DNA from: a virus | IMG/VR virus record: IMGVR_UViG_3300046505_000234 | Span: 1-40,489 of that record | DNA: 40,489 bases | Strand: one strand, 5' to 3' | Shown here: positions 3,694 through 36,507 of the stretch, piece by piece | How the letters are laid out: each line of letters begins with the position of its first letter | Numbering within the stretch: position 1 is the first letter of the stretch | Position numbers and translations under genes: made by a program | Notes under the pieces: model-generated | Databases searched by the model: none | The model's input: the letters and a program-made list of their open reading frames with translations, nothing else | What the model was told of the DNA's origin: nothing

Positions 3694-4259
3694 GGTTTCC
3701 TCCTGAACGTTCCCATGCTTCCCTCCGTGGCGGCTCTCATCGTTGCCTCGCCTTTCCCGGCGTCATTGGCTTCGATGTCCTCCACAGGGTCGGATCGTTC
3801 CTGTTCGGTTTGGCCCTTTATGGCATCAAGTCTTCCGGTGTCTATGTTTACGGGCATTTCTCAGCCCCCGGCTTGTTAACCATTACTATGGCCGCTGCTG
3901 ACTCCCCTCCAGGTTGCCCCGTTGGGGTCTCCCCAGGTAAGAGCGCGTTGCTTCCCGGCACGACCGCCGCATTTACCTCCGCGACTGAACCAGCGACTTC
4001 GTTGCGTGGTGCCCCTTCGTCGCATCGCGTCGGCCTTTATATGCGGTTCTTGTTCATCGGCCCGCCGGTTTCCTCTAGCCTTCCTTCCCCCGGTTGGTTA
4101 CCCTTCCAGAGTTGGCTTCAAGTAGTAGTTATGTTTTCATGTTTCCATGAATGGTTCTCCTACAAGAGACTTTCACTCTATTTACAACGCGCCCATGCTG
4201 GGCGCACACCAACCGTTCGACCGTACGCGGTGAACCGCTCCGGTCAAGGCCGGCGTACC

Positions 4260-11004: not shown

Positions 11005-11049
11005 GCCAATTCTCCTAGTTTGCCCAAATCAAATTGCCCGTTGAACATT

Positions 11050-11088
11050 CCCACCAACCTCCTCCCCCCGTAGGGGGAGGTTGGTGGG
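11050..11088. repeat. Perfect 39-nt hairpin upstream of the resolvase gene
   Basis: CCCACCAACCTCC and GGAGGTTGGTGGG form a 13-bp perfect stem, extended inside by CCCCC/GGGGG-like pairing. No T-run follows on either strand, so it is not a typical intrinsic terminator. Part of the left arm (CATTCCCAC.AACCTC) recurs at ~11162. Confidence 0.75.
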
Positions 11089-11176
11089 AAACTTGCCGTC
11101 TATTCTGGTTTTCATGTTCCCGTTTTCCGTCGTAAGTGGCTGTTGTTTGCAATGACTTACACATTCCCACAAACCT

Positions 11177-12427
11177 CTAAATCGTAGTTTCTGGTTTCTG
11201 GTTTACCCAATTGCGCTTACTTGGCCGATTTTCAGCCTCTTCGCGCCCCGAATCCGTCACCTCATAACGCCTGAAATATTGGTCTCCACACTCATCGAGC
11301 CACCGCCCTTTTACGCACGCTTTGAGCATCTTTCTGACCGTCTCTTTTCCGCATCCAAGGGCACCGGAAATCAGGTCTACATAGAACGTCTGGCTTTCAC
11401 CGGGCCGGTGCATTACGGCATGTACGCAATCGAAATCATCGTTCTGCTTGCGCCGTCCACCTTTCCGCTTGCTCAATACGTCCTCAACCGCCTCCGCCGT
11501 CGCCTTGTGCCAACAAATCCGCCCGGGCCGATCATCGTGTGCGATGTACTGGACGTTCGTAGGGTTCCCATCATCGTCCAACCACCGCAAACGCTTCCCG
11601 CGTTTGACCGCCCGCAACTCGAAAACACTGTCCGACCCGATGGACCTGATCGCCACCGCAGAACGCGCCGGATTGATCCATTCAGCCGACCCGGCCCCGA
11701 GATAGGCGAAATCGCCCGCTTCCCAATTGTCCTTCTCTTTTCCGCGTAACGGCTTGTTCGTATGATGTGCCAGTACCATTCCAACCTGAAGCCTCTGCAG
11801 GAGTGGATTCAGCAATTCCCGCATGAAATGACTGACGTCCTTTTGGGAATTGCTATCACCGCCCAGGTACGCGAAAGCAGGATCCACCATAAGCAGATCA
11901 AACGGGCCGCGCTCCACGAGCAGGACCTCAATCTCTGCGGCGAACGCCTCAGCACTCTTGTCGCTGACTGTCCGCACAATGATACGTTCCACCGCCAGCC
12001 GCTTCTCCTCATCGGTCAAATCGTCACAACCAGCGAGAACCCCATCCCGCATCTCAGCAAGATCGCCCTCATCGTTCTCAGCCTGCACCAGTAGAATCCG
12101 CATACCTTTCCGCTGATAGATGTCGCCCGGCACGATCCCGAAGAAACCTTTTCCGACCGCCCAGTGAATCGCCGCCTGAACAAGGAGAGAGGACTTCCCA
12201 ATTCCAGTCGGACCACAGACAAGGCAGATACCACCGCGGTAAAGAAACCGATGTTTCAACAGTTCGTTCGGATCGTTCCCATAAACCGGTGTCCGCATCT
12301 CGCCGAGCGACTTAACAGCAGGCGGCTCATGTACCTTCGCGACTTCCGTCTCGATAGCCGTGATTTCCGCCGCCGGCACAAACTCCTTCATCAAGATCTC
12401 AAGCGGACTTGGTTTCTTCATGTTCAT
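11177..12427 (-). CDS. RepA/DnaB-like AAA ATPase (AAA_25), replicative helicase candidate
   Basis: This ~416-residue RecA-fold ATPase has Walker A 'CGPTGIGKSS' near residue 65, 'ILLVQAEND' and Walker B 'FDLLMVDPAFAYLGGDSN', followed by 'VGMVLAHHTNKP', the His-bearing motif typical of RepA-like hexameric helicases. A C-terminal helical, winged-helix-like part follows ('VIHRPGES...LISGALGCGKETVRKMLKACVKGRWL'). I set the start at ATG 12427 (12421 also possible) because GGGG precedes it and the frame upstream overlaps the primase gene. It overlaps the primase stop (12399) by about 29 bp, so the two are probably coupled. It would unwind the element's DNA during replication. Confidence 0.82.
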   Translation of the reverse strand: MNMKKPSPLEILMKEFVPAAEITAIETEVAKVHEPPAVKSLGEMRTPVYGNDPNELLKHRFLYRGGICLVCGPTGIGKSSLLVQAAIHWAVGKGFFGIVPGDIYQRKGMRILLVQAENDEGDLAEMRDGVLAGCDDLTDEEKRLAVERIIVRTVSDKSAEAFAAEIEVLLVERGPFDLLMVDPAFAYLGGDSNSQKDVSHFMRELLNPLLQRLQVGMVLAHHTNKPLRGKEKDNWEAGDFAYLGAGSAEWINPARSAVAIRSIGSDSVFELRAVKRGKRLRWLDDDGNPTNVQYIAHDDRPGRICWHKATAEAVEDVLSKRKGGRRKQNDDFDCVHAVMHRPGESQTFYVDLISGALGCGKETVRKMLKACVKGRWLDECGDQYFRRYEVTDSGREEAENRPSKRNWVNQKPETTI

Positions 12428-13346
12428 CAAACCCCAAAGTTGAAATGAATCCAGCCACACCAATTGCATCACCGTTCCAATAGAGAATTCGTTGCCGAAC
12501 ACGTGAGTCATCGGCCTTCACACGGAGCCCGCCCGGCATCCGTAACCAACCGCAGATATCCCACCGTGTCCGATCAGCCCCAATCAGGCAGCACATCATG
12601 AAGAACCGCGTCTGATTCTGTCGGCTCAGGCTCTCAACGAAGTACCACGCATGAACGCTCTTCCCGCCCGAATCCACCGCCATGACCAGCGGCGCCAGAT
12701 GCCCCAGCGACGACGCAAGCTGCGCTTGCTGTCGCTTGGTCAATGCCGCGTCATCGAACTCAGCTACCAGATACCGCCGCACCATCACATTGTTCTGGCA
12801 CCGCGCCGACGGATGGCCCGTGAGATTCACGGCCAGAGACCCGCGCATCGGATTCACGCAAATGAATTGAAGGCATTCCGCATCGGTCAGAACATCATCC
12901 AACGGTCGAACCGTCGCTCGTTCACTATCAGCACCAGTGCAGACCAGTTCCCCGGACCTGAAAAGGTGGGGAAGAACATCGCCGGGCCGAAGGCCCGTGC
13001 TCGTTTCTCCATCAAACACCGGGTCGGTCTTTTCCATAACCTCCCGGATCAAATCACGATTACACTCCGGCCATTCCAAAGCGCCACGCCCATAGTTCAA
13101 GACAGCAACCGTCGAATGCTCTGCATAGGCAAACTGAACCGCCGCCTCGATCTCCCGATCCGGCACGCGCCGGTGCGCGACGTGTACGTCGCAACACCGC
13201 CGCAAGAACTCCGCGCACTTCGCTGGTGTCAGCATGTGGCTGACGCCACTTGCGACTTGTGCCAGCCAGCGATGCGTTGCGCCCGCCTCTGGCGGTTCCG
13301 CCAAACGCGCCGCCGTGCGTTGAGAAAATGGATAGACGACAGCCAT
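12399..13346 (-). CDS. Archaeo-eukaryotic-type primase-like protein
   Basis: The 315-residue protein has the late motif set of viral AEP-like primases: 'YLVAEFDD' (acidic pair), 'MAVDSGGKSVHAWYFVE' (the S-G-K-S-x-H box), and 'WDICGWLRMPGGLR' (the R-x-PG strand). The N-terminal third (FLRRCCDVHVAHRRVPDREIEAAVQFAY) looks like a separate helical region. It is encoded directly before and overlapping the AAA helicase, the arrangement seen in phage primase-helicase modules. The ribosome site GGGGGTAAG is adjacent to the ATG. Assignment is from motifs only, and a non-catalytic relative cannot be excluded. Confidence 0.65.
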   Translation of the reverse strand: MAVVYPFSQRTAARLAEPPEAGATHRWLAQVASGVSHMLTPAKCAEFLRRCCDVHVAHRRVPDREIEAAVQFAYAEHSTVAVLNYGRGALEWPECNRDLIREVMEKTDPVFDGETSTGLRPGDVLPHLFRSGELVCTGADSERATVRPLDDVLTDAECLQFICVNPMRGSLAVNLTGHPSARCQNNVMVRRYLVAEFDDAALTKRQQAQLASSLGHLAPLVMAVDSGGKSVHAWYFVESLSRQNQTRFFMMCCLIGADRTRWDICGWLRMPGGLRVKADDSRVRQRILYWNGDAIGVAGFISTLGFDEHEETKSA

Positions 13347-13347
13347 C

Positions 13348-13728
13348 TTACCCCCGATTCACGAGACCGCTCCGCGACACAACAACCCATCCCTGATAGT
13401 GGGGGCGTCTCGACACAGCCATGTGGAGACCTGCGGCGATCCGGTGCGCAAGAGGCCACCGACTTGCCGGTGCGACATCGGAGAAAAGAGTTTGATTTCG
13501 CCGCGCCCATTCCCCCAGATTCATGAAACTGAAAACGAGGCCCCGCGGACTTCGTAGAACCCAATAACGCGCCTGGGCATGATCCAATCGCCCACGTTCA
13601 TTCCGACCGCAGCCATGAGGGTATCTCTGACTCCGAGTCAAACATGCCCGCTTTGCAACTCTTGCCAAAGCCAACTTTCGCCGCTCTTCAATTTCCGGAT
13701 AAAGTCTTCTGATTTCTTGAATGAACAT
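13348..13728 (-). CDS. Small conserved-looking phage protein, function unknown
   Basis: The 126-residue basic protein has an N-terminal helix (IQEIRRLYPEIEERRKLALARVAKRACL), a Cys/Arg region and a C-terminal module 'FSFMNLGEWARRNQTLFSD...ASRWPLAHRIAAGLHMA...YQGWVVVSR'. That module resembles short DNA-binding modules found beside phage endonucleases and in phage regulators (N-L-x-x-F/W-x-R ... A..GL ... W). The ATG at 13728 has GGGAGG upstream; a TTG at 13737 also fits. It sits between polymerase (19 bp upstream) and primase. Function not known. Confidence 0.55.
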   Translation of the reverse strand: MFIQEIRRLYPEIEERRKLALARVAKRACLTRSQRYPHGCGRNERGRLDHAQARYWVLRSPRGLVFSFMNLGEWARRNQTLFSDVAPASRWPLAHRIAAGLHMAVSRRPHYQGWVVVSRSGLVNRG

Positions 13729-13746
13729 AGGAATCAACCTCCCGTC

Positions 13747-15591
13747 CTATTTGCCATACATCGAACAAAGCTTCCCGTCCGCCCGCAGCGGTAAACCCGC
13801 CGCCCACGGTACGGACTCCTCGAAAATCCCGACAATCCGCCTCAGATCCTCTTCGGCGGATGCCTCCGGCACCTCAAAGACCAATTCATCATGCACGCTC
13901 AAAACCGGCCGGAATCCCTGCGCATCGCACCGCAACCAGGCCGAAGCCAGAACATCCCTGGCTGTCGCCTGTGTCCAGTTCTCCGCCAGCAACCCGCCGT
14001 AAACCTTGATACGGTCGCCGCAAACCGTGCAGTCAAGGCCGTCTTCATCGGCCTTCACATCACGGTAGATGAGGTAACGGCCCAGCTCCGGGTTAATCTG
14101 AGTGCAGGGGAGAGGGAGAAGGTAGTTGCCACCATCGCAGGAAGCGCAGGCATCGTTGAGACTCTGCCACAAGGTCACGATCTTCGGATTCGACTCCCGA
14201 AATTCCCGAACGATCCGCTCGGATTCTCCTTCGCCGATCTCCAGTCCGGCCATGACCTTGGCGACCTCAACGAACCGTTTGGCACCGCAACCGAACCCAA
14301 GCCCGAGAACACGCGCCTTTGCCAACTGCCGCAATCCCGATCCGGTCTGCAGACAGTAATCGCGCAAAGATTCAGCCTCAGAGAAGCCCATCGTCGCCCG
14401 CGCATGAATCTCGTAGGCATCCGCCTCAGGATTCGCCCGGAACATCTCCAGCGTCTCCACGTCGCCAGCCAGGAAGAGCAGAACCCGACTCTCGATCTGC
14501 GAATAATCCACTACCGCCAACCAGTAACCCGGCGGCGCAACAATGCACCGGCGCAGGTCAACGCCCTCCGCCGGCTTGCGGTTGTAGTTCTGCATGTTCA
14601 ACCCACCGCCACCCGACCACCGCCCTGTACTCGCACCGAAGTATTTGAGTTCATACGCCATCCGCGAATCCGGCATTCTCCTAAGTCGCATGCCGTCCAA
14701 GACCTTCGCGGTCCGGTTCGCCGAACGTATCCGCTGCATGTGTCGCGCCCAAGTCACCGCCTCACTTCGTATCTGTTCTTTCACCCAGGTCATGAAATCA
14801 GGATCGCTGGCAGAAGTGGACCGCGGCGGCGGTGTCCCGATCGCCACGCACGCCTCCTCGAATTTAGGAATTGAAAGCGCAGGCTTCCAGGGCAGGACGG
14901 CGGAAACCGCCGTCACTGTTTCATTCAGGTCAGCAAGGTTGGCCTCGATGTAATCCCAATCAACACACAAACCACGCCGCCCCATGTCAGACGTAAGGTC
15001 GAACAATTGCCGTTCGTGTGCTGGCCAGTACTTCTGCAACTCCGTCCAAAGAGCGAGAGTCATTTCTGCATCGGTCGCCGCATACGCCGCGCCCTCTTCG
15101 GATTGCCCGAACAGGTCAGGTCCGCAGTCACGACCCTTCGCCCGCTTTCGCTGGCTCTTGTCTAACTCAATCCCAAACACCGCACGGACAGCGCCCGCCA
15201 GATCACGCGGCAACTGGAGAAACGCGCACAAAGCCGCAGAACAGTGCCATTTGGTAGGGCGAGGCGTCCCTGCCGAGCCGTTGATGACGCCCAACTCTCC
15301 AAGCCTTCTGTACACCCCTTCGTCAAACTCCCGGTTATGGCTGACCCATTCCCGCCCGTTAATAGTCTCCCAGGGAAATTCCTCCGGTGCACAAACACAG
15401 GTCCGCTCACCGTCCGAAACGCTGACGGCCCAAGCATCAAACCGTCCATCTTGGCAGTAAGCCCAATTGCCCATTTGACTGACCGAGTACGTCGAGGAAT
15501 AGAAGGTTTCAAAATCAACACCGACAACGGGCCCGACGTTACCGTCGGCCCATTGCTTCGGTGTCACCCGTTTTGCCTTGGGCAAATTCAC
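13747..15591 (-). CDS. Family A DNA polymerase with 3'-5' exonuclease
   Basis: The ~614-residue phage-type DNA polymerase I lacks the 5'-3' exonuclease. The N-terminal proofreading domain has 'VVGVDFETFYS' (D-x-E), 'WVSHNREFDEGVY' (N..FD) and 'YAATDAEMTLAL' (Y..D). The polymerase domain has 'STGRWSGGGGLNMQN' (motif near A), 'LAVVDYSQIESRVLLFLAGD' (motif A Asp), 'RQLAKARVLGLGFGCG' (O-helix, motif B) and 'FRPVLSVHDELVFEVPE' (motif C, HDE). All catalytic positions appear intact. I prefer the GTG at 15591, which overlaps the nuclease stop (GTGA), to the TTG-type extension to 15633. It replicates the element's DNA. Confidence 0.92.
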   Translation of the reverse strand: MNLPKAKRVTPKQWADGNVGPVVGVDFETFYSSTYSVSQMGNWAYCQDGRFDAWAVSVSDGERTCVCAPEEFPWETINGREWVSHNREFDEGVYRRLGELGVINGSAGTPRPTKWHCSAALCAFLQLPRDLAGAVRAVFGIELDKSQRKRAKGRDCGPDLFGQSEEGAAYAATDAEMTLALWTELQKYWPAHERQLFDLTSDMGRRGLCVDWDYIEANLADLNETVTAVSAVLPWKPALSIPKFEEACVAIGTPPPRSTSASDPDFMTWVKEQIRSEAVTWARHMQRIRSANRTAKVLDGMRLRRMPDSRMAYELKYFGASTGRWSGGGGLNMQNYNRKPAEGVDLRRCIVAPPGYWLAVVDYSQIESRVLLFLAGDVETLEMFRANPEADAYEIHARATMGFSEAESLRDYCLQTGSGLRQLAKARVLGLGFGCGAKRFVEVAKVMAGLEIGEGESERIVREFRESNPKIVTLWQSLNDACASCDGGNYLLPLPCTQINPELGRYLIYRDVKADEDGLDCTVCGDRIKVYGGLLAENWTQATARDVLASAWLRCDAQGFRPVLSVHDELVFEVPEASAEEDLRRIVGIFEESVPWAAGLPLRADGKLCSMYGK

Positions 15592-16388
15592 GCAGCCTTC
15601 GCCCTCGGATCGTAACCTTTGATGTACCGCCAAATCTCAGCCAGCCTCGTGAACGCATCCCAGTCCTTCTCCGGATGCGCATGCTTCACAACTTCCATCC
15701 GGCCCGGTTCCGTCGAACTGATGAAGACATTGGCCGCCAAAACCCGACCGATATTCTCCTCGCCCCAGTACGTCGCGGCATACGCCGCCAACTGCATGGC
15801 CTGATCCTCGTAAGCCCCAACCGGTTTACCTGGTTGAGTCTTCCTCGTCTTGTAGTCCAAGATGCCGATGCCGTTCTCTCCGTACCGGAAGAGAACGTCC
15901 GCCGTGCCGGCGAACCCGTGCGCCGTGTTCACCAGTCGCGCCTCGCGATCAAGAATCAGGATGCCCGTCTTTTCCTTCCAAGCCAGCACCGGATCCACGT
16001 AAACCGAAAGGGAGGGGTCGAATGGCTCACCAGCCATCGCCGCCTCCAGAGCACCATGAATCATTCCACCCAGGTCCGCCGCTTCCTCTACCTGTTCGAA
16101 GGCAGCATTACGGACACGGTTGCACCAGTAGTCTTCACCTTCCTCCGCCGCCTTCGGCGTGCGGAGCGTTGCCAACGCCATCTGGTTCAACTTCCAGGTC
16201 TCCAGCCCCGGCTTCGCCAAAACGCTCAAGATACTTGTCACACTGGGGTAAAGTCCCAGTCGCTTCGCATCCCTGATCGTGGTAATCCGTTCGCCCGCAC
16301 CGTCCGCAGTAGCGATCCGGTGCGCAGGGGTTCCATCGGCTTTGTACCAATGCCCCGCCTTAATCATGTTCTTTGTGAGTACAGCCAT
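15588..16388 (-). CDS. RecB-family PD-(D/E)XK exonuclease
   Basis: The 266-residue nuclease shows 'VNTAHGFAGTADVLFRY' (Asp of the GxxD motif), 'GIGILDYKTRK' (D-x-K signature) and 'AYEDQAMQLAAYA' (QxxxY motif) in order, matching Cas4/RecB-like phage nucleases. An N-terminal 'YPSVTSILSVLAKPGLETWK' and 'GGMIHGALEAAMAGE' (His of the family) also fit. It would resect DNA ends for recombination-dependent replication together with the SSB-like protein. GGGAG precedes the ATG. The stop overlaps the polymerase start. Confidence 0.88.
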   Translation of the reverse strand: MAVLTKNMIKAGHWYKADGTPAHRIATADGAGERITTIRDAKRLGLYPSVTSILSVLAKPGLETWKLNQMALATLRTPKAAEEGEDYWCNRVRNAAFEQVEEAADLGGMIHGALEAAMAGEPFDPSLSVYVDPVLAWKEKTGILILDREARLVNTAHGFAGTADVLFRYGENGIGILDYKTRKTQPGKPVGAYEDQAMQLAAYAATYWGEENIGRVLAANVFISSTEPGRMEVVKHAHPEKDWDAFTRLAEIWRYIKGYDPRAKAA

Positions 16389-17460: not shown

Positions 17461-17811
17461 CTATTTCTTGCCCGTTGATTTCACCTCCTCGCGATCCTCC
17501 CTCAACAACTCAGTCCTCTTCTTGAACTCATCACTCGCCAGGTACGCCTCCACCTCGCTCATCCGGAATCGTCGCCGGCCACCCAGTGCATGACCAGGCA
17601 CGCCCCAGCGCCAAAGCGAACACGAACTCACGTTCAGTCGCCGCGCGACCTCTCGAAGGGTCAGGAATGGTTCGGCCTGCCCTGAGAACCGCCGAAGGGT
17701 GTCCGCATCGGCGATTGTCGGCTCACCGCGCAAGATCTTCAGTACTGCCGCTTTGCGCTCAGGAGTCGCCGCAACTACTGCGGCCAGGAGTTCACCAGTC
17801 AAATCACTCAT
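17461..17811 (-). CDS. Excisionase-like HTH protein (MerR-type HTH_17), early operon
   Basis: The 116-residue protein has an N-terminal helix (MSDLTGELLAAVV...ERKAAVLKILRGE) and a winged HTH 'FLTLREVARRLNVSSCSLWRWGVPGHALGGRRRFRMSEVEAYLA', the excisionase/MerR-type fold that recognises short sites. It is clearly paralogous to the HTH protein at 34534-34917 (same MSD..LL..V....RKA..L..LRGE start and the same HTH layout). AGGAGG precedes the ATG at 17811, which overlaps the stop of the upstream small gene. It is probably a DNA-binding regulator of the early operon or an excision factor. Confidence 0.78.
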   Translation of the reverse strand: MSDLTGELLAAVVAATPERKAAVLKILRGEPTIADADTLRRFSGQAEPFLTLREVARRLNVSSCSLWRWGVPGHALGGRRRFRMSEVEAYLASDEFKKRTELLREDREEVKSTGKK

Positions 17812-17959
17812 AACCGCCACCCTCCTTCTGGTAATCGATGTGGTAATCAACCCAGAGAATGTGAATTGCGGCCTCGTCGCCTTCGCGGGCTAGATCCAGG
17901 TTCTGTTGAAACCAACAGTCTCTTTTGTTCTTCCGTCCTGCTCGTACCTTCTCGTCCAT
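17804..17959 (-). CDS. Small protein upstream of the excisionase-like gene
   Basis: The 51-residue product starts MDEKVRAGRKNKRDCWFQ and ends KEGGGYE. A clear GGAAGGAG lies before the ATG at 17959, and its stop overlaps the next start (ATGAGTGA), so translation is coupled. It appears to be the first gene of the early operon. No family recognised. Confidence 0.5.
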   Translation of the reverse strand: MDEKVRAGRKNKRDCWFQQNLDLAREGDEAAIHILWVDYHIDYQKEGGGYE

Positions 17960-17992
17960 GCCAAAACTCCTTCCGTTGTTTCGGCTGGGCAC

Positions 17993-18025
17993 AAAAAAAA
18001 GGCGCCCAGCTTTCGGCTGGACGCC
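17993..18025 (-). terminator. Intrinsic terminator after the unknown two-gene cassette
   Basis: On the minus strand GGCGTCCAGC pairs with GCTGGGCGCC (one G-T pair) around CGAAA and is followed by eight T. It closes the 18101-20678 cassette and insulates the phage early operon from it. Confidence 0.85.
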
Positions 18026-18100
18026 TCTTCGTTCGTCCCGCCTCAAAGGAAGAGGCGGGAACAGGTCGTTCCCATCGGGAAGAAGTCGTTCCTTAACTCA

Positions 18101-19507
18101 TCATTCTGAAATCTCCTGCCACACTATGCCTTTCGTCGGCGAATAACGGTTGATCTCACCGTAGCGAAGAACATCCTTGTCATTCAGATGCTTCCATAAC
18201 TCCGCGTCGTTCATCTGAATGCACTTCAAAACCTTACGCAGGTGCTTCCCCAAAAGATTCGATTGCCGTGCGAATGCGTCGTTCGGGAAACGCTTTGCCA
18301 GTCGCCGCCCATCAGGCCCCGGCTTCGTGTGCTCAACCAGGAAGGCCAATAATTCGTCACGCTTCACCTCGAGAACATCACGATCCTTCGCCAAACTGGG
18401 ATCGTCTTTACCCTCGCGCAGCGCAATTTCAACATCCCTGATCATGCCTTCGTAGCGCCTGATCTCAGACTCATCTAGAATGTCCTGTCCCGAATCTGGC
18501 TGCCATTGAAGGGCAACCTGGAGTTGTCCCTCATTGTTGAACATCACATCATTGGCCTCCCCGTCCGAGACTGTGGAAACGCACGAACCCTCGATAGCGG
18601 TGATCAGCGCGTCAGGTCGCAGGTCTTTCTTACAGTGCAACAGCAGGTGAACCAAGTACTCAGAACCCACGACATTCGGTAGGTCGAATTCGGGACCACG
18701 GAACCGAATTGCCCACAGCCGCATCTTTCGCTTCACGTTCTTCGTTCGATACGACTTCGTCCCTCGACATCGCAAACTAAAGGAAGCCACAGTTCCTTTC
18801 CCGCCGGAAGGAACATCTTCCCGTCGCCGATCCGCTTCCACACTCGTTCCAAAGACGTCACGAAAGAGGGGCGACGACGTAATCCGTGCGCCGAGCGCAA
18901 CATCGCATCCCAAATTCTGCCCATCTTTGATCAGCAAGTCTTCCAACGCCCAGTACATGATCCGACGCGTACCACAAGCCTTCGCGATGCGTTCATTATG
19001 TTTTGGCGTCAAGAGCACAGGGGAGCCAGACCCACCGAGAAACCATCGATCAACGCAGGATTCCTGACCACCGATGCCAGGCGCCATCATAAGCCCGATA
19101 CGGACACGTAAACCCTCAACAACCAAAGAACCATCCAGCACGGGATACTCGCAAACTTCCAAAGGTGAACTAGCCTCAGAACCAAGAACCGAGAAGATGG
19201 TTGAGGCCAATTCAACCCTGTCCAACTCGACCTCCATGGCGTCACGCTTGAGAAGGGTCAACTCCTCCAAGGCCAAGCCGTCATCCTCGGAGTCCGGCCC
19301 CGCCTTGTACACGCCCCCTGATTCCGAAACCTGCCAGCGCGCCCCGTCTGGTCCGGGAATACTCACCGCAGATGCACCGGTTTCGATCAGGTAGTCATCG
19401 ATAAAGAGGGCATCTGCCCCTGCGCACGCGCGCCAATCGGCACGCGTGGCAGGGACATAAGCCAACTTCTCAATCGCCGCCCAGATGTTCTTAGGCTGCT
19501 GCTGCAC
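18101..19507 (-). CDS. Unrecognised protein B of an isolated two-gene cassette
   Basis: The 468-residue protein has no domain I can name. Visible features: an N-terminal 'IWAAIEKLAYVPATRADWRACAGADALFIDDYLI' segment, 'GIGGQESCVDRWFLGGSGSPVLLTPKHNERIAKACGTRRIMYWALEDLLI' in the middle, a basic patch 'RCRGTKSYRTKNVKRKMRLWAIRFRG' followed by 'SEYLVHLLLHCKKDL', and a helical, charged C-terminal region ('YEGMIRDVEIALREGKDDPSLAKDRDVLEVKRDELLAFL') with coiled-coil character. The GTG start at 19507 overlaps the end of gene A by 17 bp with AAGGAGATC upstream, indicating translational coupling. The terminator at 17993-18025 follows. Position in a defence-rich stretch suggests an anti-phage role; this is inference only. 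Confidence 0.7.
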   Translation of the reverse strand: MQQQPKNIWAAIEKLAYVPATRADWRACAGADALFIDDYLIETGASAVSIPGPDGARWQVSESGGVYKAGPDSEDDGLALEELTLLKRDAMEVELDRVELASTIFSVLGSEASSPLEVCEYPVLDGSLVVEGLRVRIGLMMAPGIGGQESCVDRWFLGGSGSPVLLTPKHNERIAKACGTRRIMYWALEDLLIKDGQNLGCDVALGARITSSPLFRDVFGTSVEADRRREDVPSGGKGTVASFSLRCRGTKSYRTKNVKRKMRLWAIRFRGPEFDLPNVVGSEYLVHLLLHCKKDLRPDALITAIEGSCVSTVSDGEANDVMFNNEGQLQVALQWQPDSGQDILDESEIRRYEGMIRDVEIALREGKDDPSLAKDRDVLEVKRDELLAFLVEHTKPGPDGRRLAKRFPNDAFARQSNLLGKHLRKVLKCIQMNDAELWKHLNDKDVLRYGEINRYSPTKGIVWQEISE

Positions 19508-20678
19508 GACGTATGATCTCCTTGCTCATCATAAAACCGTTCGCCCTCAGCAAATCCTCGAGCGCGGTCGAGTCGCTGTCCCGACAGTAATTCGCTCGTC
19601 GTCCTGCCGAAACACGCACGGGCCGCGGTTTGCCGGCATCACCGAAACTGATGCCAAAGATCGCATGCTCAACACGCTCGGCATAATCCGGCACCAGCAA
19701 TTCCCCTGGCAGAAGCGTACGCGTAAGACATGACCGGCAACGGCGTCCATCGATCCGATCAGCCGCCATCCGGATGCTGTATTCGATCTCACGCAGTCCG
19801 TCGCAAACCGCGCCCGGCGTCGTTTGCCACGGTGCATGCCTATGCCCGAAATGCCGCAACCGTTCCAGGTTGAATACCTCCCGGTCACCGAAGAAAGTTG
19901 AATCGCCAGTCAAGAGCAACCCAAAGTGGTACTTGTAACTGGGATGCAACTTGGGCGCTGCCTTCACCTTCAGTTCGCAGTACTTCCGATTGAAGACGAT
20001 CACGTCATATTGCAACTGCCGGATGAAGTGAATGTCGATCCTTCCGTCATCCTTCATGTCGCTAAACATTTCTGTCTTGCTGCCATGCCGGACAAGGAAC
20101 CAGATTTCGTGTCCGAAATCGTAAGGGATCACAGTCGCACTTTTCCCCATGTCGCCGCCATGAAACCAGACCGCCAGAGTCTTCTCCAGCGCTCTGTAGT
20201 TAGCATCCTTGGGGGAAAGCAGATCCACTTCCGTGATGCCCTGCGCCGGCGGGTAGTAATCAAACGCCCGCTGCCGCTGCAAGATCACGCGCGAATGGGC
20301 ACTCTCCAACAACCGCCGATTCAAAAGGCACACCCGCATCGCGAAGTCGTGCAGAGTGCGTCCCTTGATTTCCGCAACTACGACATCGCGATGCGCCAAC
20401 TCAGCCTTCAACTTATCATGCCCGGACGGCTTGCCCAATTCGGCAATCAGAACGATGTCCTGAATCAAGTCCGGCGGGGTTTCGCCCTCAACCACGCGCA
20501 TAAAAAGATCGGGCAACCGGCCCCACGGCATGGTCTCAGCGGTAGCATGGTCCGGCAGTGTGATTCCTCTGGCCGAGAGGTACTCCGGATATTGTCCAAG
20601 AAACGCAGCAAGCGTTTCCGGATGAAACTTCGTCAGTTCTTCGGCGTGCGAAAACGCCTTTCTAATGTCTGCAGACAT
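19491..20678 (-). CDS. Unrecognised protein A of an isolated two-gene cassette
   Basis: The 395-residue protein starts MSADIRKAFSHAEELTKFHPETL and I cannot assign a family. The N-terminal ~150 residues are helical. The central part is strand-rich: 'ATVIPYDFGHEIWFLVRHGSKTEMF', 'YDVIVFNRKYCELKVKAA' and 'YKYHFGLLLTGDSTFFG' look like a sensor-type or ligand-binding beta domain. The C-terminal region has 'RRCRSCLTRTLL' and 'RRANYCRD', with three cysteines that could bind metal. ATAAAGGAGACTGATT precedes the ATG. An intrinsic terminator lies upstream (20723-20760) and another closes the pair downstream, so this is an autonomous two-gene unit. No catalytic motif is evident. Confidence 0.7.
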   Translation of the reverse strand: MSADIRKAFSHAEELTKFHPETLAAFLGQYPEYLSARGITLPDHATAETMPWGRLPDLFMRVVEGETPPDLIQDIVLIAELGKPSGHDKLKAELAHRDVVVAEIKGRTLHDFAMRVCLLNRRLLESAHSRVILQRQRAFDYYPPAQGITEVDLLSPKDANYRALEKTLAVWFHGGDMGKSATVIPYDFGHEIWFLVRHGSKTEMFSDMKDDGRIDIHFIRQLQYDVIVFNRKYCELKVKAAPKLHPSYKYHFGLLLTGDSTFFGDREVFNLERLRHFGHRHAPWQTTPGAVCDGLREIEYSIRMAADRIDGRRCRSCLTRTLLPGELLVPDYAERVEHAIFGISFGDAGKPRPVRVSAGRRANYCRDSDSTALEDLLRANGFMMSKEIIRRAAAA

Positions 20679-20722
20679 AATCAGTCTCCTTTATGTGCTT
20701 CTGTCATGCCACAAGGCATGCC

Positions 20723-20760
20723 AAAAAAAAACGGCGCTGGTGACATTTTGCACCAGCGCC
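20723..20760 (-). terminator. Intrinsic terminator between DUF2188 gene and the two-gene cassette
   Basis: On the minus strand GGCGCTGGTG and CACCAGCGCC form a perfect 10-bp stem with an 8-nt loop, followed by C/G and nine T. It ends the DUF2188 transcript before the cassette, which therefore needs its own promoter in the ~45 bp to 20678 or inside read-through. Confidence 0.88.
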
Positions 20761-20770
20761 GTCCGTATTA

Positions 20771-21652: not shown

Positions 21653-22146
21653 TCTTGCCTCCTATTTCACTTTCTCTGCGAAACTACCCAAAGTGGTCTT
21701 AATTGTCAAGCAAAGGTTTGCACAAGGCATTACGGCGTGTCACTCGCATTCTTGCGAACACATGCTCTAAAGTGTTACCAAGTGTTACGCAGTGGTATAT
21801 TGTGCTACAAAACAGCGACAAAAGAGAACTGTCATACCAGTGCTATCCTCTGCGCGGTTGGAATGTCAACCCATTTTTCAGGTTGCCCCATTTGGACTAG
21901 CAACCCAATGCGGTGCCAAAGGGTTCTCAATTGACCACTTCCTTTAAGAAGAAACCAAGTCTTGGGAGATCCAAAACCAACAGACCCAGATTATGCGAAA
22001 GAACTCCAAGACCCAGAAAGTAGGCAGGATAACTCGAAGAAAGTCTCGCCCAACCAAGTTGACAAACCACTCACTCCCTGCCAGAGTTTTGACAACTACC
22101 GAATGTTTTGGTAACCACAGAGAAGAACCGGAAGGACCGAGCGATA
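21653..22146. other. 494-bp intergenic region between divergent units
   Basis: It carries the minus-strand promoter at 21681-21709 and the region that must hold the hsdM promoter. An AGTGTTAC pair (~21771-21788) and a TGGTATATT extended -10-like box (~21792) lie within it. I see no gene in it. Confidence 0.45.
21681..21709 (-). promoter_or_regulatory. Sigma-70-type promoter for the 21242-21652 gene
   Basis: On the minus strand TTGACA (21704-21709) is separated by exactly 17 nt from TAGTTT (21681-21686), and the AGGAGG ribosome site follows ~20 nt further on. Confidence 0.7.
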
Positions 22147-24450
22147 ATGGACCAATCAACGCACAACAGGATTGTCTCTTTCATCTGGGGAATCGCTGAC
22201 GACGTTCTGCGCGATCTCTTCAAACGCGGCAAGTATCCGGACGTGATCCTGCCGATGTGCGTAATTCGACGCATGGATGCGGTGTTGGAACCGACCAAGA
22301 AGGCAGTTCTCGAAACAAAGGCGATGCTCGACAAGAGCGGCATTACAGAACAGCGCGCCGCACTCGCTGACGCTGCACGTCAGGCGTTCTACAATACATC
22401 ACGATTCGCCCTGCGCGACCTCAAGTCGCGCGGAAGCCAGCAACAGTTGCTTGCCGATTTTGAGGATTACCTCAACGGCTTCTCGCCGAACGTTCAGGAT
22501 ATCATTGAAAACTTCAAGTTCCGCAACCAGCTCTCCACACTCTCGAAGGCCGATGCACTGGCAACATTGATCAACAAGTTCCTCGATCCCGACATTGATC
22601 TTTCCCCGGCTGGCACTGACAACCACGCAATGGGCACGATCTTCGAGGAACTGGTTCGTAAGTTCAACGAAGACAACAACGAGGAGGCCGGCGAACACTG
22701 GACACCCCGCGACGCCGTCAAACTGATGGCGAACCTTATCTTTCTCCCCATCGTCGCTTCAATCCGCTCCGGCCATTACCTGCTTTATGATGGCGCCCTT
22801 GGCACCGGCGGCATGATGACTGTTGGCGAGGAAACACTGTTGAACCTCGTCACCGCGCGCGGCCAACAGATAACCACCGAACTTTACGGCCAGGAAATCA
22901 ACCCCGAGACCTACGCCATCTGCAAGGCCGATATGCTACTCAAAGGTGAGGGCGAAAGCGCCGACCACATCGTCGGCGGTGCCGAATGGTCCACCCTCGT
23001 GCACGACGCTTTCCCCGCCATGCTCTTCGACTTCATGATGTCAAACCCGCCCTACGGGAAGAGCTGGAAGAAGGACCTTGAGTTGATGGGCGGCAAAGAG
23101 GACATGCGTGACCCGCGTTTCAAGGTGATGCACAAGGGCGAGGAAATGTCACTTGTAACACGTTCAAGCGATGGACAGATGCTCTTTCTCGCCAACATGG
23201 CGTCGAAGATGAATCATGAATCGAAACTCGGAAGCCGCATTGCCGAGGTGCACAACGGCTCGTCGTTGTTTACAGGCGACGCAGGCCAGGGCGAGAGCAA
23301 TATCCGCCGCTGGATTATAGAGAACGACTGGCTGGAAGCCATCGTCGCCCTACCGCTGAACATGTTTTACAATACCGGCATCGCAACCTACATCTGGGTG
23401 CTCTCCAACAAAAAGCCCGCCAACCGCAAGGGCAAGGTGCAATTGATCGACGCCACCCAATGGTTCAAACCTTTGCGAAAGAATCTCGGCAAGAAGAACT
23501 GCGAACTTTCGCCCGAAGACATCGAGCGAATCAGCCGCACCTTCCTGGATTTCAAGGAGACGCCTGAATCCAAGATATTCCAGAACGCCGCCTTTGGTTA
23601 CTGGAAGGTCACGGTTGAACGCCCGCTGCGCCTGCACAGCCAACTTACACTCAAGGCCATTGCCACGCTACACTTCGCCTCAGGCGACGAAGAATTGCGC
23701 GCCGCACTCTATGACGAGTTCGGGGACGATCTCTTTAACAAGTTCACAAAGATATCGGACAAATTGGAGAAGCGCCTCGAAGAATGGAGCGACGCCGACC
23801 AAGAAGGCGACGAAGAGGAAGAGGGTCCCGCCAAGAAGGGTCTGCCCGAGAAGAAGAAAAAGAAGTTGCTCGACCCCAAGACCTGGGCACGCGACGGCCG
23901 ACTTGTAGAAGTCGCCACGAAATTGCGCGATGAACTCGGCGACAAACTCTTCGAAGATCACAACGTCTTTCGCCAAAACATGAATGAAGCAATCGAGAAA
24001 GAGGAAATCGACATTTCCGCATCAGACTTGAAAATCATTCTCAAAGCCGTTAGCTGGCGCGTCGAGACCGCGCCGCCGGTCATCGCCAAGAGGCACAAAC
24101 CCGGCAAGGTAAAGGCCGACCCAATAAACGGCATGTACGAGCAGAAGATTGACGGCAAACCGGCCATTGTGGAGTACGAACCGGATTCGGATCTGCGCGA
24201 CACAGAACAGGTGCCGCTACTAGAAGAAGGCGGGATTGAGGCGTTTATCCGCCGTGAGGTTCTGCCCTACACCCCAGACGCATGGATCAAGGCAGGCGCA
24301 ACAAAGGTCGGCTACGAGGTGAGCTTCACCCGCCATTTCTACAAACCGCAGCCATTACGAACTCTCGAACAGATCAGCGCCGACATACTAACCGCCGAAA
24401 AGGAAACCGAGGGATTCTTGGATGGAATTCTGAAGGTGCCCCGAAAATGA
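22147..24450 (+). CDS. hsdM: Type I restriction-modification methyltransferase HsdM
   Basis: The 767-residue protein is the adenine N6-methyltransferase of a type I system and works as M2S with HsdS. The N-terminal helical domain (IVSFIWGIADDVLRDLFKRGKYPDVILPMCVIRRMD) leads to 'GEHWTPRDAVKLM', then SAM motif I 'LYDGALGTGGMM', 'LYGQEINPETYAICKADMLLKGE' and the catalytic 'FMMSNPPYGKSW' (N-P-P-Y). It is longer than the usual ~500-600 residues: the C-terminal extension includes an acidic/Lys-rich linker (DEEEEGPAKKGLPEKKKKKLL). ATG 22147 is preceded by GGAAGGA; the frame extends to 22108. The stop overlaps the hsdS start (ATGA). Confidence 0.95.
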   Translation: MDQSTHNRIVSFIWGIADDVLRDLFKRGKYPDVILPMCVIRRMDAVLEPTKKAVLETKAMLDKSGITEQRAALADAARQAFYNTSRFALRDLKSRGSQQQLLADFEDYLNGFSPNVQDIIENFKFRNQLSTLSKADALATLINKFLDPDIDLSPAGTDNHAMGTIFEELVRKFNEDNNEEAGEHWTPRDAVKLMANLIFLPIVASIRSGHYLLYDGALGTGGMMTVGEETLLNLVTARGQQITTELYGQEINPETYAICKADMLLKGEGESADHIVGGAEWSTLVHDAFPAMLFDFMMSNPPYGKSWKKDLELMGGKEDMRDPRFKVMHKGEEMSLVTRSSDGQMLFLANMASKMNHESKLGSRIAEVHNGSSLFTGDAGQGESNIRRWIIENDWLEAIVALPLNMFYNTGIATYIWVLSNKKPANRKGKVQLIDATQWFKPLRKNLGKKNCELSPEDIERISRTFLDFKETPESKIFQNAAFGYWKVTVERPLRLHSQLTLKAIATLHFASGDEELRAALYDEFGDDLFNKFTKISDKLEKRLEEWSDADQEGDEEEEGPAKKGLPEKKKKKLLDPKTWARDGRLVEVATKLRDELGDKLFEDHNVFRQNMNEAIEKEEIDISASDLKIILKAVSWRVETAPPVIAKRHKPGKVKADPINGMYEQKIDGKPAIVEYEPDSDLRDTEQVPLLEEGGIEAFIRREVLPYTPDAWIKAGATKVGYEVSFTRHFYKPQPLRTLEQISADILTAEKETEGFLDGILKVPRK

Positions 24451-25832
24451 TCGCCGATCTCAAATCGTATCCAAAATACAAGGAGTCGGACCTGCCGTGG
24501 CTTGGTAAGGTACCAACCCATTGGGGAATCCGAGCATTAAAGCGCCTATGTTCTCGGTCAGCGTTATACGGCGCGAACATCTCGGCATCCAACTATGTGG
24601 AAACTGGGGTCCGTTTTCTTAGAACAACCGATATCACAGAGGATGGCATGCTCCGCCGCGGAGGCGTATTCGTTGAAGAGAACAAGGCGCGGGATTACAT
24701 GTTATCTGACGGCGATGTACTCCTATCCCGTAGCGGAACAATAGGAAGATCACTACGCTACCGCCCAGAAGAACATGGGCCATGCGCATATGCGGGGTAC
24801 CTCGTACGCTTTGTACCCGCACCAAAGACGAATTCCGATTTCCTCTTTCACTTCACTAAGACACCAACCTTCGCGGACTTCATCCGACTAAACGCCATCT
24901 CGTCCACAATTGACAATGTCAATGGCGAAAAGTTCGCGAATATGCCACTGCCACTTCCATCGGTCTCTGAGCAAGATGCCATCGTGCGGTTTCTGGACTG
25001 GGCGAACGCCCGATTAAAGCGGGCACTCCACGCCAAGCGCAAAGTGATCTCCTTTCTCGATGAACAGAAAAACGGGATCATCCACAGAGCCGTCACACGA
25101 GGCCTCGATCCAAAGGTCCCACACAAAACTTCCGGCATCCCATGGCTCGAGGAGATTCCAAAACATTGGCGAATTGCACGCAACATGGCCCTGTTCTCAC
25201 ACAGAGTTGAGGAAGGGATCCCGGGTTTGCCAATTCTGCAAGTCTCCCTCCACTCCGGTGTCACTGCCCAAGCAAATGACCAGTTTGGCCGGCGCAAACG
25301 CTTGATTGCGGACCACACCAAGTACAAACTCGTTCGCAAGGGCGACTTGGCTTACAATACGATGCGAATGTGGCAGGGTGCCATTGGCGTCTGTCCAGAG
25401 GACGGCCTCGTCAGTCCTGCTTACGTTGTAATCCAAGCGCGACAAGGGATAGAACCGCGGTTCTATGAGTTTCTTTTCCGAACCGCAGTATACAAACAAC
25501 AGGTCAACAGATACTCAACAGGTATAGTCTCAGATCGCAACCGCTTGTATTGGCAGAACTTCAAACAGATGCCCAATCTGTCCTTGCCAATCGAAGAACA
25601 GCAGGCGATTTGCAGGTATATTCAAGATGAGACCGCCAACCTTGATCATGCCATCGCCCGCCTCGAAAAAGAGATCGAATTGCTACGAGAATACCGCACC
25701 CGCCTCGTCGCCGATGTTGTGACCGGCAAACTCGACGTGCGCGAGGCGGCGGCAAAGTTGCCCGACGAAGCCGCGCCGGAAACCGCCGAATTGACAGAGG
25801 ACGCTGAACTCAGTACCGAGGAGGTCGAATGA
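24447..25832 (+). CDS. hsdS: Type I restriction-modification specificity subunit HsdS
   Basis: The 461-residue protein carries two target-recognition domains that read the two halves of a bipartite recognition site. TRD1 begins 'YKESDLPWLGKVPTHWG', with 'LLSRSGTIGRS' and 'SEQDAIVRFLDWAN' leading into the first helical conserved region (LKRALHAKRKVISFLDEQKNGIIHRAVTRGL). TRD2 begins 'KTSGIPWLEEIPKHWR', with 'IEEQQAICRYIQDET' leading into the second helical region (LDHAIARLEKEIELLREYRTRLVADVVTGKLDV). The ATG overlaps the hsdM stop, and the darT start overlaps its stop, so all three are translationally coupled. Confidence 0.95.
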   Translation: MIADLKSYPKYKESDLPWLGKVPTHWGIRALKRLCSRSALYGANISASNYVETGVRFLRTTDITEDGMLRRGGVFVEENKARDYMLSDGDVLLSRSGTIGRSLRYRPEEHGPCAYAGYLVRFVPAPKTNSDFLFHFTKTPTFADFIRLNAISSTIDNVNGEKFANMPLPLPSVSEQDAIVRFLDWANARLKRALHAKRKVISFLDEQKNGIIHRAVTRGLDPKVPHKTSGIPWLEEIPKHWRIARNMALFSHRVEEGIPGLPILQVSLHSGVTAQANDQFGRRKRLIADHTKYKLVRKGDLAYNTMRMWQGAIGVCPEDGLVSPAYVVIQARQGIEPRFYEFLFRTAVYKQQVNRYSTGIVSDRNRLYWQNFKQMPNLSLPIEEQQAICRYIQDETANLDHAIARLEKEIELLREYRTRLVADVVTGKLDVREAAAKLPDEAAPETAELTEDAELSTEEVE

Positions 25833-26479
25833 GTAACCCTCCGAACAATCCGATGATCTACCACATCACGCATGTGGAGAATCTCGCCTCGATTCTGGCG
25901 GAGGATGTGATCTGGTCGGATGCCGAGCGATTGGCCCGGAACCTTGGAAATCTTCGGGTCGGTATGACAGCAATAAAGGAGAGACGCCTGCTTTCGCTGG
26001 AGGTCAAGTGCCACCCAGGCACCAAGGTCGGTGACTACGTTCCTTTCTATTTCTGTCCGCGTTCGATAATGCTGTTCCTATTATACAAAGGGAATCATCC
26101 GAATCTCGATTACAAAGGCGGGCAGTCGCCGATCCTGCATCTTCAGGCAAGTTTCCAAAACGCGGTAACATGGGCGGGATTGAATGGCCGGCAATGGGCT
26201 TTCTCGGACAGAAACGCGGGCACCGTGTACGCTGATTTTTTCAACAACCCGACCCAACTGACGGAGATAGATTGGAATGCAGTACATGCACAGGACTTTC
26301 GCAAAGAAACAATCAAGGAAGGAAAACAGGCTGAGTTTCTTATGCACAAATCTTTCCCGTGGTCACTCATCCAGAATGTCGGCGTCCATGATGCGAGGGT
26401 CGAAGCGCAAGTCCAGAGCATATTACAAAATGCGCATCACAAGCCTCTTGTATCCGTGGAAAAGAACTGGTATTACTAA
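25829..26479 (+). CDS. darT: DarT toxin: NAD-dependent DNA ADP-ribosyltransferase (DUF4433)
   Basis: The 216-residue protein matches DarT (DUF4433). It has 'IYHITHVENLASIL' (NAD-binding His near the N-terminus), 'VGDYVPFYFCPRSIMLF' and 'KQAEFLMHKSFPWSLI' carrying the catalytic Glu. DarT attaches ADP-ribose to thymidine (or guanosine) in single-stranded DNA, blocking replication; it is reversed and held in check by DarG. Its ATG overlaps the hsdS stop (ATGA), so it is part of the type I operon. The catalytic residues look intact. Subfamily (thymidine versus guanosine target) cannot be told from the sequence by eye. Confidence 0.9.
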   Translation: MSNPPNNPMIYHITHVENLASILAEDVIWSDAERLARNLGNLRVGMTAIKERRLLSLEVKCHPGTKVGDYVPFYFCPRSIMLFLLYKGNHPNLDYKGGQSPILHLQASFQNAVTWAGLNGRQWAFSDRNAGTVYADFFNNPTQLTEIDWNAVHAQDFRKETIKEGKQAEFLMHKSFPWSLIQNVGVHDARVEAQVQSILQNAHHKPLVSVEKNWYY

Positions 26480-26502
26480 TGGCACATTAAGCGGCAAAGA
26501 CA

Positions 26503-27552
26503 ATGATCACAACCACACATGGCGACGTTCTGAAACAGGATGCCGAGGCGCTGGTCAACACAGTCAATTGCGTGGGGATCATGGGCCGGGGCGTCGCGCT
26601 CCAGTTTCGAAAGGCTTTTCCTGAGAACTACACAGCGTACAAGAAAGCCTGCGCTCACAAAGAGGTCCATCCGGGAAAGATGTTCATACACGATCTGAAC
26701 AGCCTGGAGAATCCCCGCGTCATCATCAATTTCCCGACCAAACGCCACTGGAAGGGCAAGAGCCGAATCGAGGATATCCAGGCAGGATTGGTCGATTTGG
26801 TTCAAGTCCTTTCCAAGTACAAGATCCGGTCTGTCGCATTGCCACCCTTGGGTTGCGGTTTGGGCGGCCTGAACTGGAAAGAGGTGCGGCCTCTGATTGA
26901 AAAGGCTTTGTCCGCAATCGGGGACATTCAAGTGTACTTGTTCGAACCGGAAGCAACACCGGCAGCCGAGGTGATGGTCAACAGAACCGAACGACCAGAA
27001 ATGACAGTGGGCAGAGCAGCATTGCTGGGTCTGATGGCACGGTATCTGGACGCATTGATGGATGTTGGCGTCTCACTCCTTGAGATACACAAACTCATGT
27101 ATTTCCTCTCAGAAACAGGTGAACCGCTTAAACTGCGATGGGCAAAAGGACCATACGGACCCTATGCCCAGAATCTGCGGCATGTTCTGACATTGCTCGA
27201 TGGCCACTTTATTTCCGGCTACGGGGACGGGAAAGATTCTCCGGACAAGGTCATAGAATTGCAGGAAGGCGCACTTAAGGAGGCCGAAGCGATGTTGGTT
27301 CAGAACCCGATAACACAAATCCGGGTGGGTCGAGTCTCGGAAATAATAGCCGGATTTGAGACGCCATTCGGAATGGAACTCTTGTCAACCGTCCACTGGG
27401 TTGCCACCCGTGAGAAGGCGGCGAATAAGGAAGAGTGCGTCAAAAAGACTTATGCTTGGAGCAAGCGCAAACGCATGTTCACGCCGGAACAGATCGGCAT
27501 TGCATGGGACACGCTCACGAAGTGCCAGTTAATGGCATCGAATCCGGCATAA
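26503..27552 (+). CDS. darG: DarG antitoxin: macrodomain DNA ADP-ribosylglycohydrolase
   Basis: The 349-residue protein has an N-terminal macrodomain (1-150) with 'GDVLKQDAEALVNTVNCVGIMGRGVALQFRKAFPENY' and 'LPPLGCGLGGLNW'. A C-terminal ~190-residue domain follows (VGRAALLGLMARYLDALMDVGVSLLEIHKLMYFL...), which in the family binds and neutralises DarT. The macrodomain removes ADP-ribose from DNA. It starts 23 bp after the darT stop and ends 4 bp before hsdR. Length and domain order match known DarG proteins. Confidence 0.92.
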   Translation: MITTTHGDVLKQDAEALVNTVNCVGIMGRGVALQFRKAFPENYTAYKKACAHKEVHPGKMFIHDLNSLENPRVIINFPTKRHWKGKSRIEDIQAGLVDLVQVLSKYKIRSVALPPLGCGLGGLNWKEVRPLIEKALSAIGDIQVYLFEPEATPAAEVMVNRTERPEMTVGRAALLGLMARYLDALMDVGVSLLEIHKLMYFLSETGEPLKLRWAKGPYGPYAQNLRHVLTLLDGHFISGYGDGKDSPDKVIELQEGALKEAEAMLVQNPITQIRVGRVSEIIAGFETPFGMELLSTVHWVATREKAANKEECVKKTYAWSKRKRMFTPEQIGIAWDTLTKCQLMASNPA

Positions 27553-27556
27553 TGGT

Positions 27557-30500
27557 ATGTCTCCCACTGACACAAGCGAGAAGGGCCTTGAAACCCTGAT
27601 CATGCGCCACATGACGGGGACGGATGGAATTGATGTTCCATCGCTTGTCGTGGCGGAGACACCAGAGGCAATCGCCGCCCAAAAGGCGGGAGGCACCGGC
27701 TACTTCGCCGGCTGCGCCAAAGACTTCGACAGGGCAAATTCAATAGACGCCCCTCAACTCTTCACGTTCCTCAATGCCACTCAACCGCAGGCAGTCGCCA
27801 AAATTGGCCTCGGCAGTTATACAAACGCCAAGGACATCAACCGTCTCAAATTCCTTGCCCGCATCTCATCCGAGATCGGCAAGCGCGGCATCATAGACGT
27901 TCTTCGAAAGGGAATTGACCACCATCCCGCCGGGCATTTCGATCTCTTCTACGGCACGCCATCAGAGGGCAATGCAAAGGCGGCGGCATTGCACGCCCAA
28001 AACCGTTTTGTGATCACCCGTCAACTCGCCTACAGCATGGATGAGACGCGACGGGCATTGGACCTGTGCATATTCATAAATGGACTGCCAATCGCGACGT
28101 TTGAATTGAAGAACAGCCTAACAAAACAGACCGTCGAGGATGCCATCCAGCAATACAAACGCGACCGCGATCCGCGCGAGACGCTCTTTGGTTTTGGTCG
28201 TTGCGTAGTGCATTTCGCGGTGGACGACGCCGAGGTGCGTATGTGCACCGAATTGAAAGGCAAGGCGTCATGGTTTCTGCCGTTCAATCAGGGATATAAT
28301 GACGGCGCAGGTAATCCGCCCAACCCGAATGGCCTCAAGACCGATTATCTCTGGAAGGAGGCCCTCACACCGGCTGGCCTCACCGATATTCTTGAGAACT
28401 ATGCGCAGATCGTCGAAGAGAAGAACGCCAAAACGGGCAAGAAAAAGCCGAAACAGGTGTTCCCGCGCTACCACCAACTCGTCGTAGTCCGCAAGGCTCT
28501 GGCCGAGATACGTTCTCAAGGGGCAGGCAAGCGATACCTCGTCCAACATTCCGCTGGCAGTGGCAAGTCGAATTCGATCGCGTGGCTATCGCATCAACTC
28601 ATCGGCTTGAAACGCAAGGGTAAGGAAGTCTTCGATTCCGTGATCGTCGTCACCGACCGCCGACTTCTTGATGACCAGATACAACGCACAATCAAACAGT
28701 TCATGCAGGTGCGGGCTACGGTCGGCCATGCGGAGCATTCGGGCGACCTGCAAAAGTTCATCGAAGAGGGCAAGAAGATCATTGTATCGACCATCCAGAA
28801 GTTTCCATTCATCCTCGATGAAATAGCAGCGGAAAGTGGCAAGACATTCGCAATTCTAATCGACGAGGCACATTCCAGCCAGGGGGGAAAGACCTCCGCC
28901 GCGATGAGCAAGGCTCTTGGCGGGCCGATTGTTGGCGATGAGGAGGAAGGCGACCCGGAAGACACGGTGAACACGGCATTGGAAAAGCGCATGAAAGCGC
29001 GCAAGATGCTCAAGAATGCCAGCTACTTCGCCTTTACCGCGACACCGAAACCCAAGACGCTGGAGACATTTGGCGAGGCGCAACCGCCGGATGCCGAAGG
29101 CAAGATCAAACACATACCATTCCACAGCTACACGATGAAGCAAGCCATCGAGGAAAAGTTCATCCTTGATGTGTTGAAGGCGTACACACCCGTGGACAGT
29201 TACTACAAACTGGTCAAGAAGATCGAAGAAGATCCGAAGTTCGACAAGAAGAAGGCCAAGAAGAAATTGCGCCGTTACGTCGAAAGCCATGACCATGCTA
29301 TCAAACTCAAGTCGGAGATTATGGTGGACCATTTCCACGAACAGGTCCTTGCGCCCAACAAAATCGGGGGTCAGGCGCGCGCGATAGTGGTCACAAGCGG
29401 CATAGAACGTGCCCTGCAGTATTACCACGCATTCAAGGACTATCTGTTGGAACGCAAGAGCCCGTATCAGGCAATCGTGGCTTTCTCAGGCGAGTTTGAT
29501 TATGGCGGGGCCAAGGTGTCTGAATCCTCCCTCAATGGGTTTCCAAGCCGTGACATTGCCGAGAAGATCCAGGAGGATCCATACCGCTTTCTGATCTGTG
29601 CCGACAAGTTTCAGACCGGCTACGATGAGCCACTTCTGCATACGATGTACGTGGACAAGGTTCTTTCCGGAATCAAGGCGGTGCAGACCTTATCGCGCAT
29701 CAACCGTGCGCACCCGCAAAAGCACGATTGCTTTGTCCTCGATTTTCAGAACAACAGCGCAACGATAAAGTTCGCCTTCCAGGATTACTACAGAACGACA
29801 TTGCTAAGCGAAGAGACCGACCCGAACAAGTTGAACAACATGAAGACAGAACTGGATGCGGTAGAGGTCTATTCATCCGAGCAGGTCCAGAAGATCGTCG
29901 AACTTTTCCTCGCCAATGCAGAAAGGGACAAACTCGACCCAATTCTCGATACCTGTGTGGCAGTCTATTTGGAAACGCTCGATGAAGACGCGCAGGCGCA
30001 GTTCAAGGGTAAGGCAAAGGCATTCTGCCGTTCATACGATTTCCTGGCCTCGATATTGCCAACAACCAACCGCGACTGGGAATGCCTGTCAATTCTGCTA
30101 AACCTCTTGATCCCAAAACTACCCGCACCGAAGGATGTGGACTTTGCCAAAGGCATCCTCGAAGCCATAGACATGGATAGCTATCGCGTCGAGAAGAAGG
30201 CAGTCATGGCGCTCGCATTGGCGGATGCAGACGCCGAGATCAAACCAGTCCCGCCAGACGCTGGCGGTTACAAACCCACACCGGACTTGGACAATCTGAG
30301 CAACATCCTCAAGACATTTAACGAGCATTTTGGGACACTCTTCACCGATTCCGATCGCGTGGTTAAGAAGATAAGGGAGGACATTGCACCAAAGGTCGCA
30401 GCTGATAAAGCCTACCAGAACGCGAAAGAGAACACACCGCACACCGCCCGGATGGCCCACGACCAAGCCCTGGCAAAGGTCATGCAGTTACTCTTGAAGG

Positions 30501-36345: not shown

Positions 36346-36507
36346 GAAGACCTCCATAGAGTTTATGCAAATGAAATACAGGGAGACTCTACGCGAGTTT
36401 GTGCCGCAGTGCAATCAGAAAAACAAAACTTTCTACCAAACTCGGCCCGTAGAAAGTGCGCCGCAAAGCGCCAAAACAGGCCTAATCTGTTGATTTATTA
36501 GGTAATT

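Follow-up and report, generated by a model that had tools for sequence, protein, structure and literature searches.

We identified a conserved pair of overlapping genes, A and B, that we judge marginally probable to be an undescribed two-protein transcriptional regulator of the lysogeny/early control region in temperate phages. The window (the whole stretch of DNA analysed, a 40,489-base virus record from IMG/VR) carries both genes on its minus strand. A (19491-20678) encodes 395 residues from an ATG start and B (18101-19507) encodes 468 residues from a GTG start, and the coordinates of the open reading frames confirm the 17-bp overlap described in the initial annotation. The strong minus-strand terminators placed on either side of the pair were also borne out. 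The first, 3' of B (17991-18031, within a folded segment at 17985-18035), folds at -26.5 kcal/mol (z -4.8) and has an 8-T tail; the second, 5' of A (20722-20764, folded segment 20715-20770), folds at -26.6 kcal/mol (z -4.0), has a 9-T tail and marks the end of the preceding DUF2188 gene. The folding energy of neither was matched by any shuffled sequence. A promoter scan returned no sigma-70-like promoter on the minus strand.

Relatives of A were collected with a single motif, YD-V...(about 21 residues)...FG..L.GD, which was obtained by reading A and was written as a degenerate DNA pattern, so the sample is biased to carriers of this motif. The pattern occurs once in the window and is absent from shuffles of it. 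Scanning IMG/VR with the pattern yielded 16 + 5 loci, 17 of which encode full-length relatives of A (about 390-410 residues); the other four (L017, L024, L025 and L030) were dropped as unrelated. The 17 contigs, in which the open reading frames are our own calls, represent about 8 lineages by A identity, so that the pair was found to recur outside the lineage of the window. In an alignment with 11 relatives, A is 24-30% identical over its full length, with 36 invariant columns, and tblastn gave identities of up to 32%. A profile HMM built from the relatives, with the window left out, finds the window's A at E=1.1e-66 (219.5 bits), so the similarity beyond the search motif is independent of it. 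A B-like gene directly follows A in 16/16 loci where the contig extends far enough, and the two frames overlap by 8-65 nt in 15 of these, with a gap of 38 nt in the remaining one. An HMM of the B family, again with the window left out, scores the window's B at E=3.7e-7, against E=1.5 for the next window ORF. Both the pair and its gene coupling are therefore conserved. A is better conserved than either the N-terminal or the C-terminal part of B in most pairs of relatives, and no homology between A and the B N-terminal part was detectable. A terminase match is present in 6/17 of the related records and is strong in three of them; in the window, the terminase large subunit is encoded at 4260-5654.

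The undescribed two-gene unit proposed initially is thus real and recurrent, and the window's A and B had no match in Pfam, NCBIfam, PHROGs or PDB sequences, nor with any PADLOC-DB 2023 family at E<=1 (the PADLOC, PHROGs and NCBIfam scans covered the window's A and B). By tblastn, the two proteins had no match among INPHARED phages or PLSDB plasmids. A relative of A used as a later tblastn query was also without a match in INPHARED, as was a consensus for A against plasmids. Peptide-pattern scans of GTDB genomes and IMG/VR returned no close relatives, PDB searches returned no solved homologue, and literature searches found no earlier description of the pair. Single-sequence AlphaFold models of A and B (pLDDT 37 and 36) were too poor for use. 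No catalytic family was recognised in any member, and A has no recognised enzymatic domain. We considered A as a histidine phosphatase because of an RHG motif and rejected this, as the Arg of FLVRHG is replaced by Lys in L020 and by Trp in L031, and there is no Pfam or PDB match. Zinc binding was rejected as well: the three C-terminal cysteines of A singled out at the outset are present (314, 317 and 365) and vary across the family.

B is modular. Its N-terminal part (about residues 1-220, encoded at 18848-19507 on the minus strand and including an LLTP motif) is conserved in the B-family alignment, and its C-terminal end varies by lineage. In L015 and L021, which form one lineage, this end matches the Rrf2 winged helix (PF02082, 7.5e-6). 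The likeness to Rrf2/winged-helix regulators lies in the DNA-binding end alone, and the organisation of the iron-sulfur regulators was not seen. The ends found in other lineages appear helix-turn-helix-like by eye, for which profile search gave no confirmation. In the window, the C-terminal domain (residues 256-464, 18116-18742 on the minus strand) matched a profile of four actinobacterial AAA/TPR regulators with an hhalign score of 40.9 (P=2.9e-5), where the four proteins had been fetched with a consensus written after reading B, so that B steered the choice of family and the compared residues were unaltered. As controls, none of 300 shuffles of B scored above 21.8 and none of 94 other window ORFs above 16.8. 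The B of another contig, L012, matches the same profile at E=4e-24. The C-terminus of the window's B therefore belongs with the C-terminal domain family of these regulators, with full-length similarity above chance, and its DNA binding is putative, by homology to the regulator C-terminus.

The regulators in question are STAND-like (for example, WP_332880967.1 of Streptomyces sp. NBC_00564) and have in common with B a C-terminal domain of about 175 residues with the pattern FRReG..W...GR...G...L..LL..P / LDd.A...YR / coiled coil / ERAR...V...I / L..HL...TG..C.Y.P, to which the window's B is weakly similar (20-25% identity). Unlike them, B has no NTPase or TPR part, and has instead a phage-specific N-terminus and a partner, A. 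The coiled-coil-like end first noticed in B is there and forms part of this recognisable domain; the basic patch noticed with it is present and sits in an insertion unique to the window member.

Two types of exchange between related phages indicate how the parts of the pair are inherited. First, the flanks of L036 and L037 are 91-92% identical, whereas A plus codons 1-244 of B are only 67% identical (LLR 319); in L036 the exchanged tract runs from just before the upstream region of A to about codon 244 of B (2688-4815). Second, the opposite swap was seen in L014/L016 and L023/L026, where A plus the B N-terminal part are 89-91% identical and the B C-terminal ends 72-75% (LLR 30 and 35; shuffles reached no more than 14 and 11). 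Taken together, the two types imply that A and the N-terminal part of B travel as one unit, and that the DNA-binding-type end of B stays with the downstream early operon. Their joint exchange suggests that A and the B N-terminal part may act together.

In the relatives, the pair lies between the modules for integration and early replication, and the gene order, with variations, is DUF2924, serine recombinase, c5, (LexA/S24), A, B, c6, sigma70_r2, c9, PDDEXK nuclease, AAA_24 ATPase, DUF669, helicase and PrimPol. These integration, LexA, sigma and replication genes are conserved neighbours in 12 or more contigs. Six contigs, from two lineages, have a LexA/S24 gene 50-61 bp upstream of A. In both L032 and L038, LexA, A and B form a unit divergent from the recombinase and recombination genes, a layout that would be expected of a lysogeny switch. 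The arrangement in the window is analogous. A and B stand at the upstream end of a leftward early operon, ahead of the exonuclease and polymerase. This operon starts just after the pair with an HTH_17 excisionase/regulator-like gene (17461-17850, minus strand; phrog_66 2e-7, and PF12728 8e-6, slightly short of the family cut-off) and continues into a recombination/replication block (10525-16388, minus strand) of exonuclease, DNA polymerase A, primase-like, AAA_25 helicase and Holliday junction resolvase genes, as matched in Pfam and PHROGs. The integrase is of the tyrosine type and lies at the opposite end of the record from the pair, adjoining tRNA-Gly(tcc) (34933-36581). Homology between the window and the related contigs is confined to A and B, so the shared position of the pair rests on analogous modules.

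We propose that A pairs with the conserved N-terminal part of B, possibly as a physical complex, to form the sensing or effector half of the regulator, and that the C-terminal domain of B would bind operators in the phage's own early region. By repression or activation, the pair would then set or tune the integration and recombination/replication operons, and with them lysogeny; in some phages it would do so together with a LexA/S24 repressor. Regulation is indicated by the exchangeable DNA-binding-type domains in which B ends. It is also favoured by the absence of any HTH_3 or S24 repressor match above the cut-off in the window and several other contigs. Against it stand the want of a usable structure or solved homologue, the fact that the B end of the window is matched only to a domain with putative DNA binding, and the upstream region of A, where nothing convincing was found in the way of a repeated operator-like site. 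In addition, the role of the pair is not obvious where a LexA/S24 protein is present.

Known phage immunity repressors are among the closest comparisons. CI, the LexA-like S24 proteins and the Rep of cluster A mycobacteriophages (PMC6550527) are likewise located between integration and replication genes; a DNA-binding regulator is expected there, and the parts of these repressors are mosaic, exchanged and diversified, as are those of the pair, which an S24/LexA gene adjoins in two lineages. The pair differs in consisting of two proteins rather than one, neither of which carries HTH_3, a LexA DNA-binding domain or S24, and in that the swapped part is A plus the B N-terminal part and not the DNA-binding end. 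More tentatively, A and B could be the first recognised members of a class of phage switch in which a sensor unit, made up of A and the N-terminal half of B, is traded between phages as an allelic cassette onto varied DNA-binding ends, so that phages would change the signal sensed and keep their operators; we regard this extension as possible and rather doubtful.

If the regulator reading is right, a family with no match in the profile libraries, cultured phages and plasmids that we searched would be a conserved part of the early region in temperate phages from uncultivated hosts, and two unannotated genes would gain a testable role. The evolution of the pair would uncouple the signal sensed from the DNA site acted on. 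It would also mean that a two-gene cassette adjoining defence genes is not necessarily a defence system.

The initial annotation had put the pair forward as a candidate anti-phage system, pointing to type I restriction, DarTG and Shedu within 14 kb. All three were located: type I restriction-modification at 22108-30589 and DarT/DarG at 25829-27552, both on the plus strand, and a Shedu-type protein at 33457-34188. Immunity regions often carry superinfection-exclusion genes, which makes a defence or exclusion role conceivable, and the block swap could reflect diversifying selection. One alternative is thus an anti-phage or superinfection-exclusion module within the immunity region, in which A or the B N-terminal part would recognise an incoming phage, the pair would block it and the B end would control expression of the pair itself. 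The setting in the window fits this alternative, as does the insulation of the unit by terminators, and the A plus B N-terminal block is swapped as an allele between near-identical phages. We nevertheless consider it unlikely. The restriction-modification, DarTG and Shedu genes next to the pair are found in the window only (PADLOC was applied to the window members alone), and the recurrence near defence genes that would have supported it was not seen elsewhere: the neighbours of the relatives are DUF2924, serine recombinase, LexA/S24, sigma-70 region-2 and recombination/replication genes. Compared with the known PADLOC 2023 systems, the pair resembles them, in the window, as a two-gene autonomous unit near such genes, and differs in having no profile match and in having relatives outside defence islands. 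No catalytic family was recognised in any member, which also speaks against defence.

The constant place of the pair, with the recombinase on one side and the PDDEXK/AAA_24/DUF669/helicase genes on the other, could instead reflect an accessory role in phage recombination/replication or in the work of the integrase, such as that of a directionality or loading factor, in which the pair would act on DNA without being a transcription regulator. This is improbable, given that the LexA-A-B unit of L032 and L038 is divergent from the recombinase and recombination genes, that the window's integrase is of the tyrosine type and lies far from the pair, at the opposite end, and that B carries DNA-binding-type domains of differing types. 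Least probable of all, and to our minds very improbable, is that A acts early against the host, for example as a host-takeover factor, and that B is dedicated to repressing or neutralising A: the close pairing and overlap of the genes, the joint swapping of A and the B N-terminal part and the stronger conservation of A would agree with this, but A has no recognised enzymatic domain and is not of typical small toxin size.

Several other features were observed in the related contigs and the window. In L034, a Fic-domain gene (3455-4633, minus strand) is divergent from A, and a perfect 20-nt palindrome, AACGAAAGGATCCTTTCGTT, lies between them. In the AAA_24 protein of L036 (7776-9572), an apparent intein of about 340 residues splits the Walker A site (GVGK / ...THN / STFG), and the L037 protein has this site uninterrupted; the Prim-Pol protein of L039 (12849-15899, minus strand) has a similar apparent intein in its Walker A region. 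In the window, DarT (25829-26479) and DarG (26503-27552) are encoded inside the type I restriction operon, whose genes are tightly packed on the plus strand (HsdM 22108-24450, HsdS 24282-25832, HsdR 27557-30589). The gene at 31035-32408 (plus strand) encodes a protein in which a DDE_Tnp_1-associated domain comes after a DruA domain (PF14236), and looks transposase-type rather than Druantia. A group II intron reverse transcriptase/maturase (2425-3693, minus strand) lies just downstream of the terminase region. The record carries a perfect 28-nt inverted repeat at its two ends (1-28 and 40364-40391), which may be an end effect of the assembly. The tRNA-Gly end has no second copy (12 nt or more) elsewhere in the window, and the other attachment site was not found. 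Beyond the tRNA, the gene at 36970-38727 (plus strand) encodes a leucine-rich repeat protein of the BspA type, has a repeat unit of 69 nt and is probably host flank.
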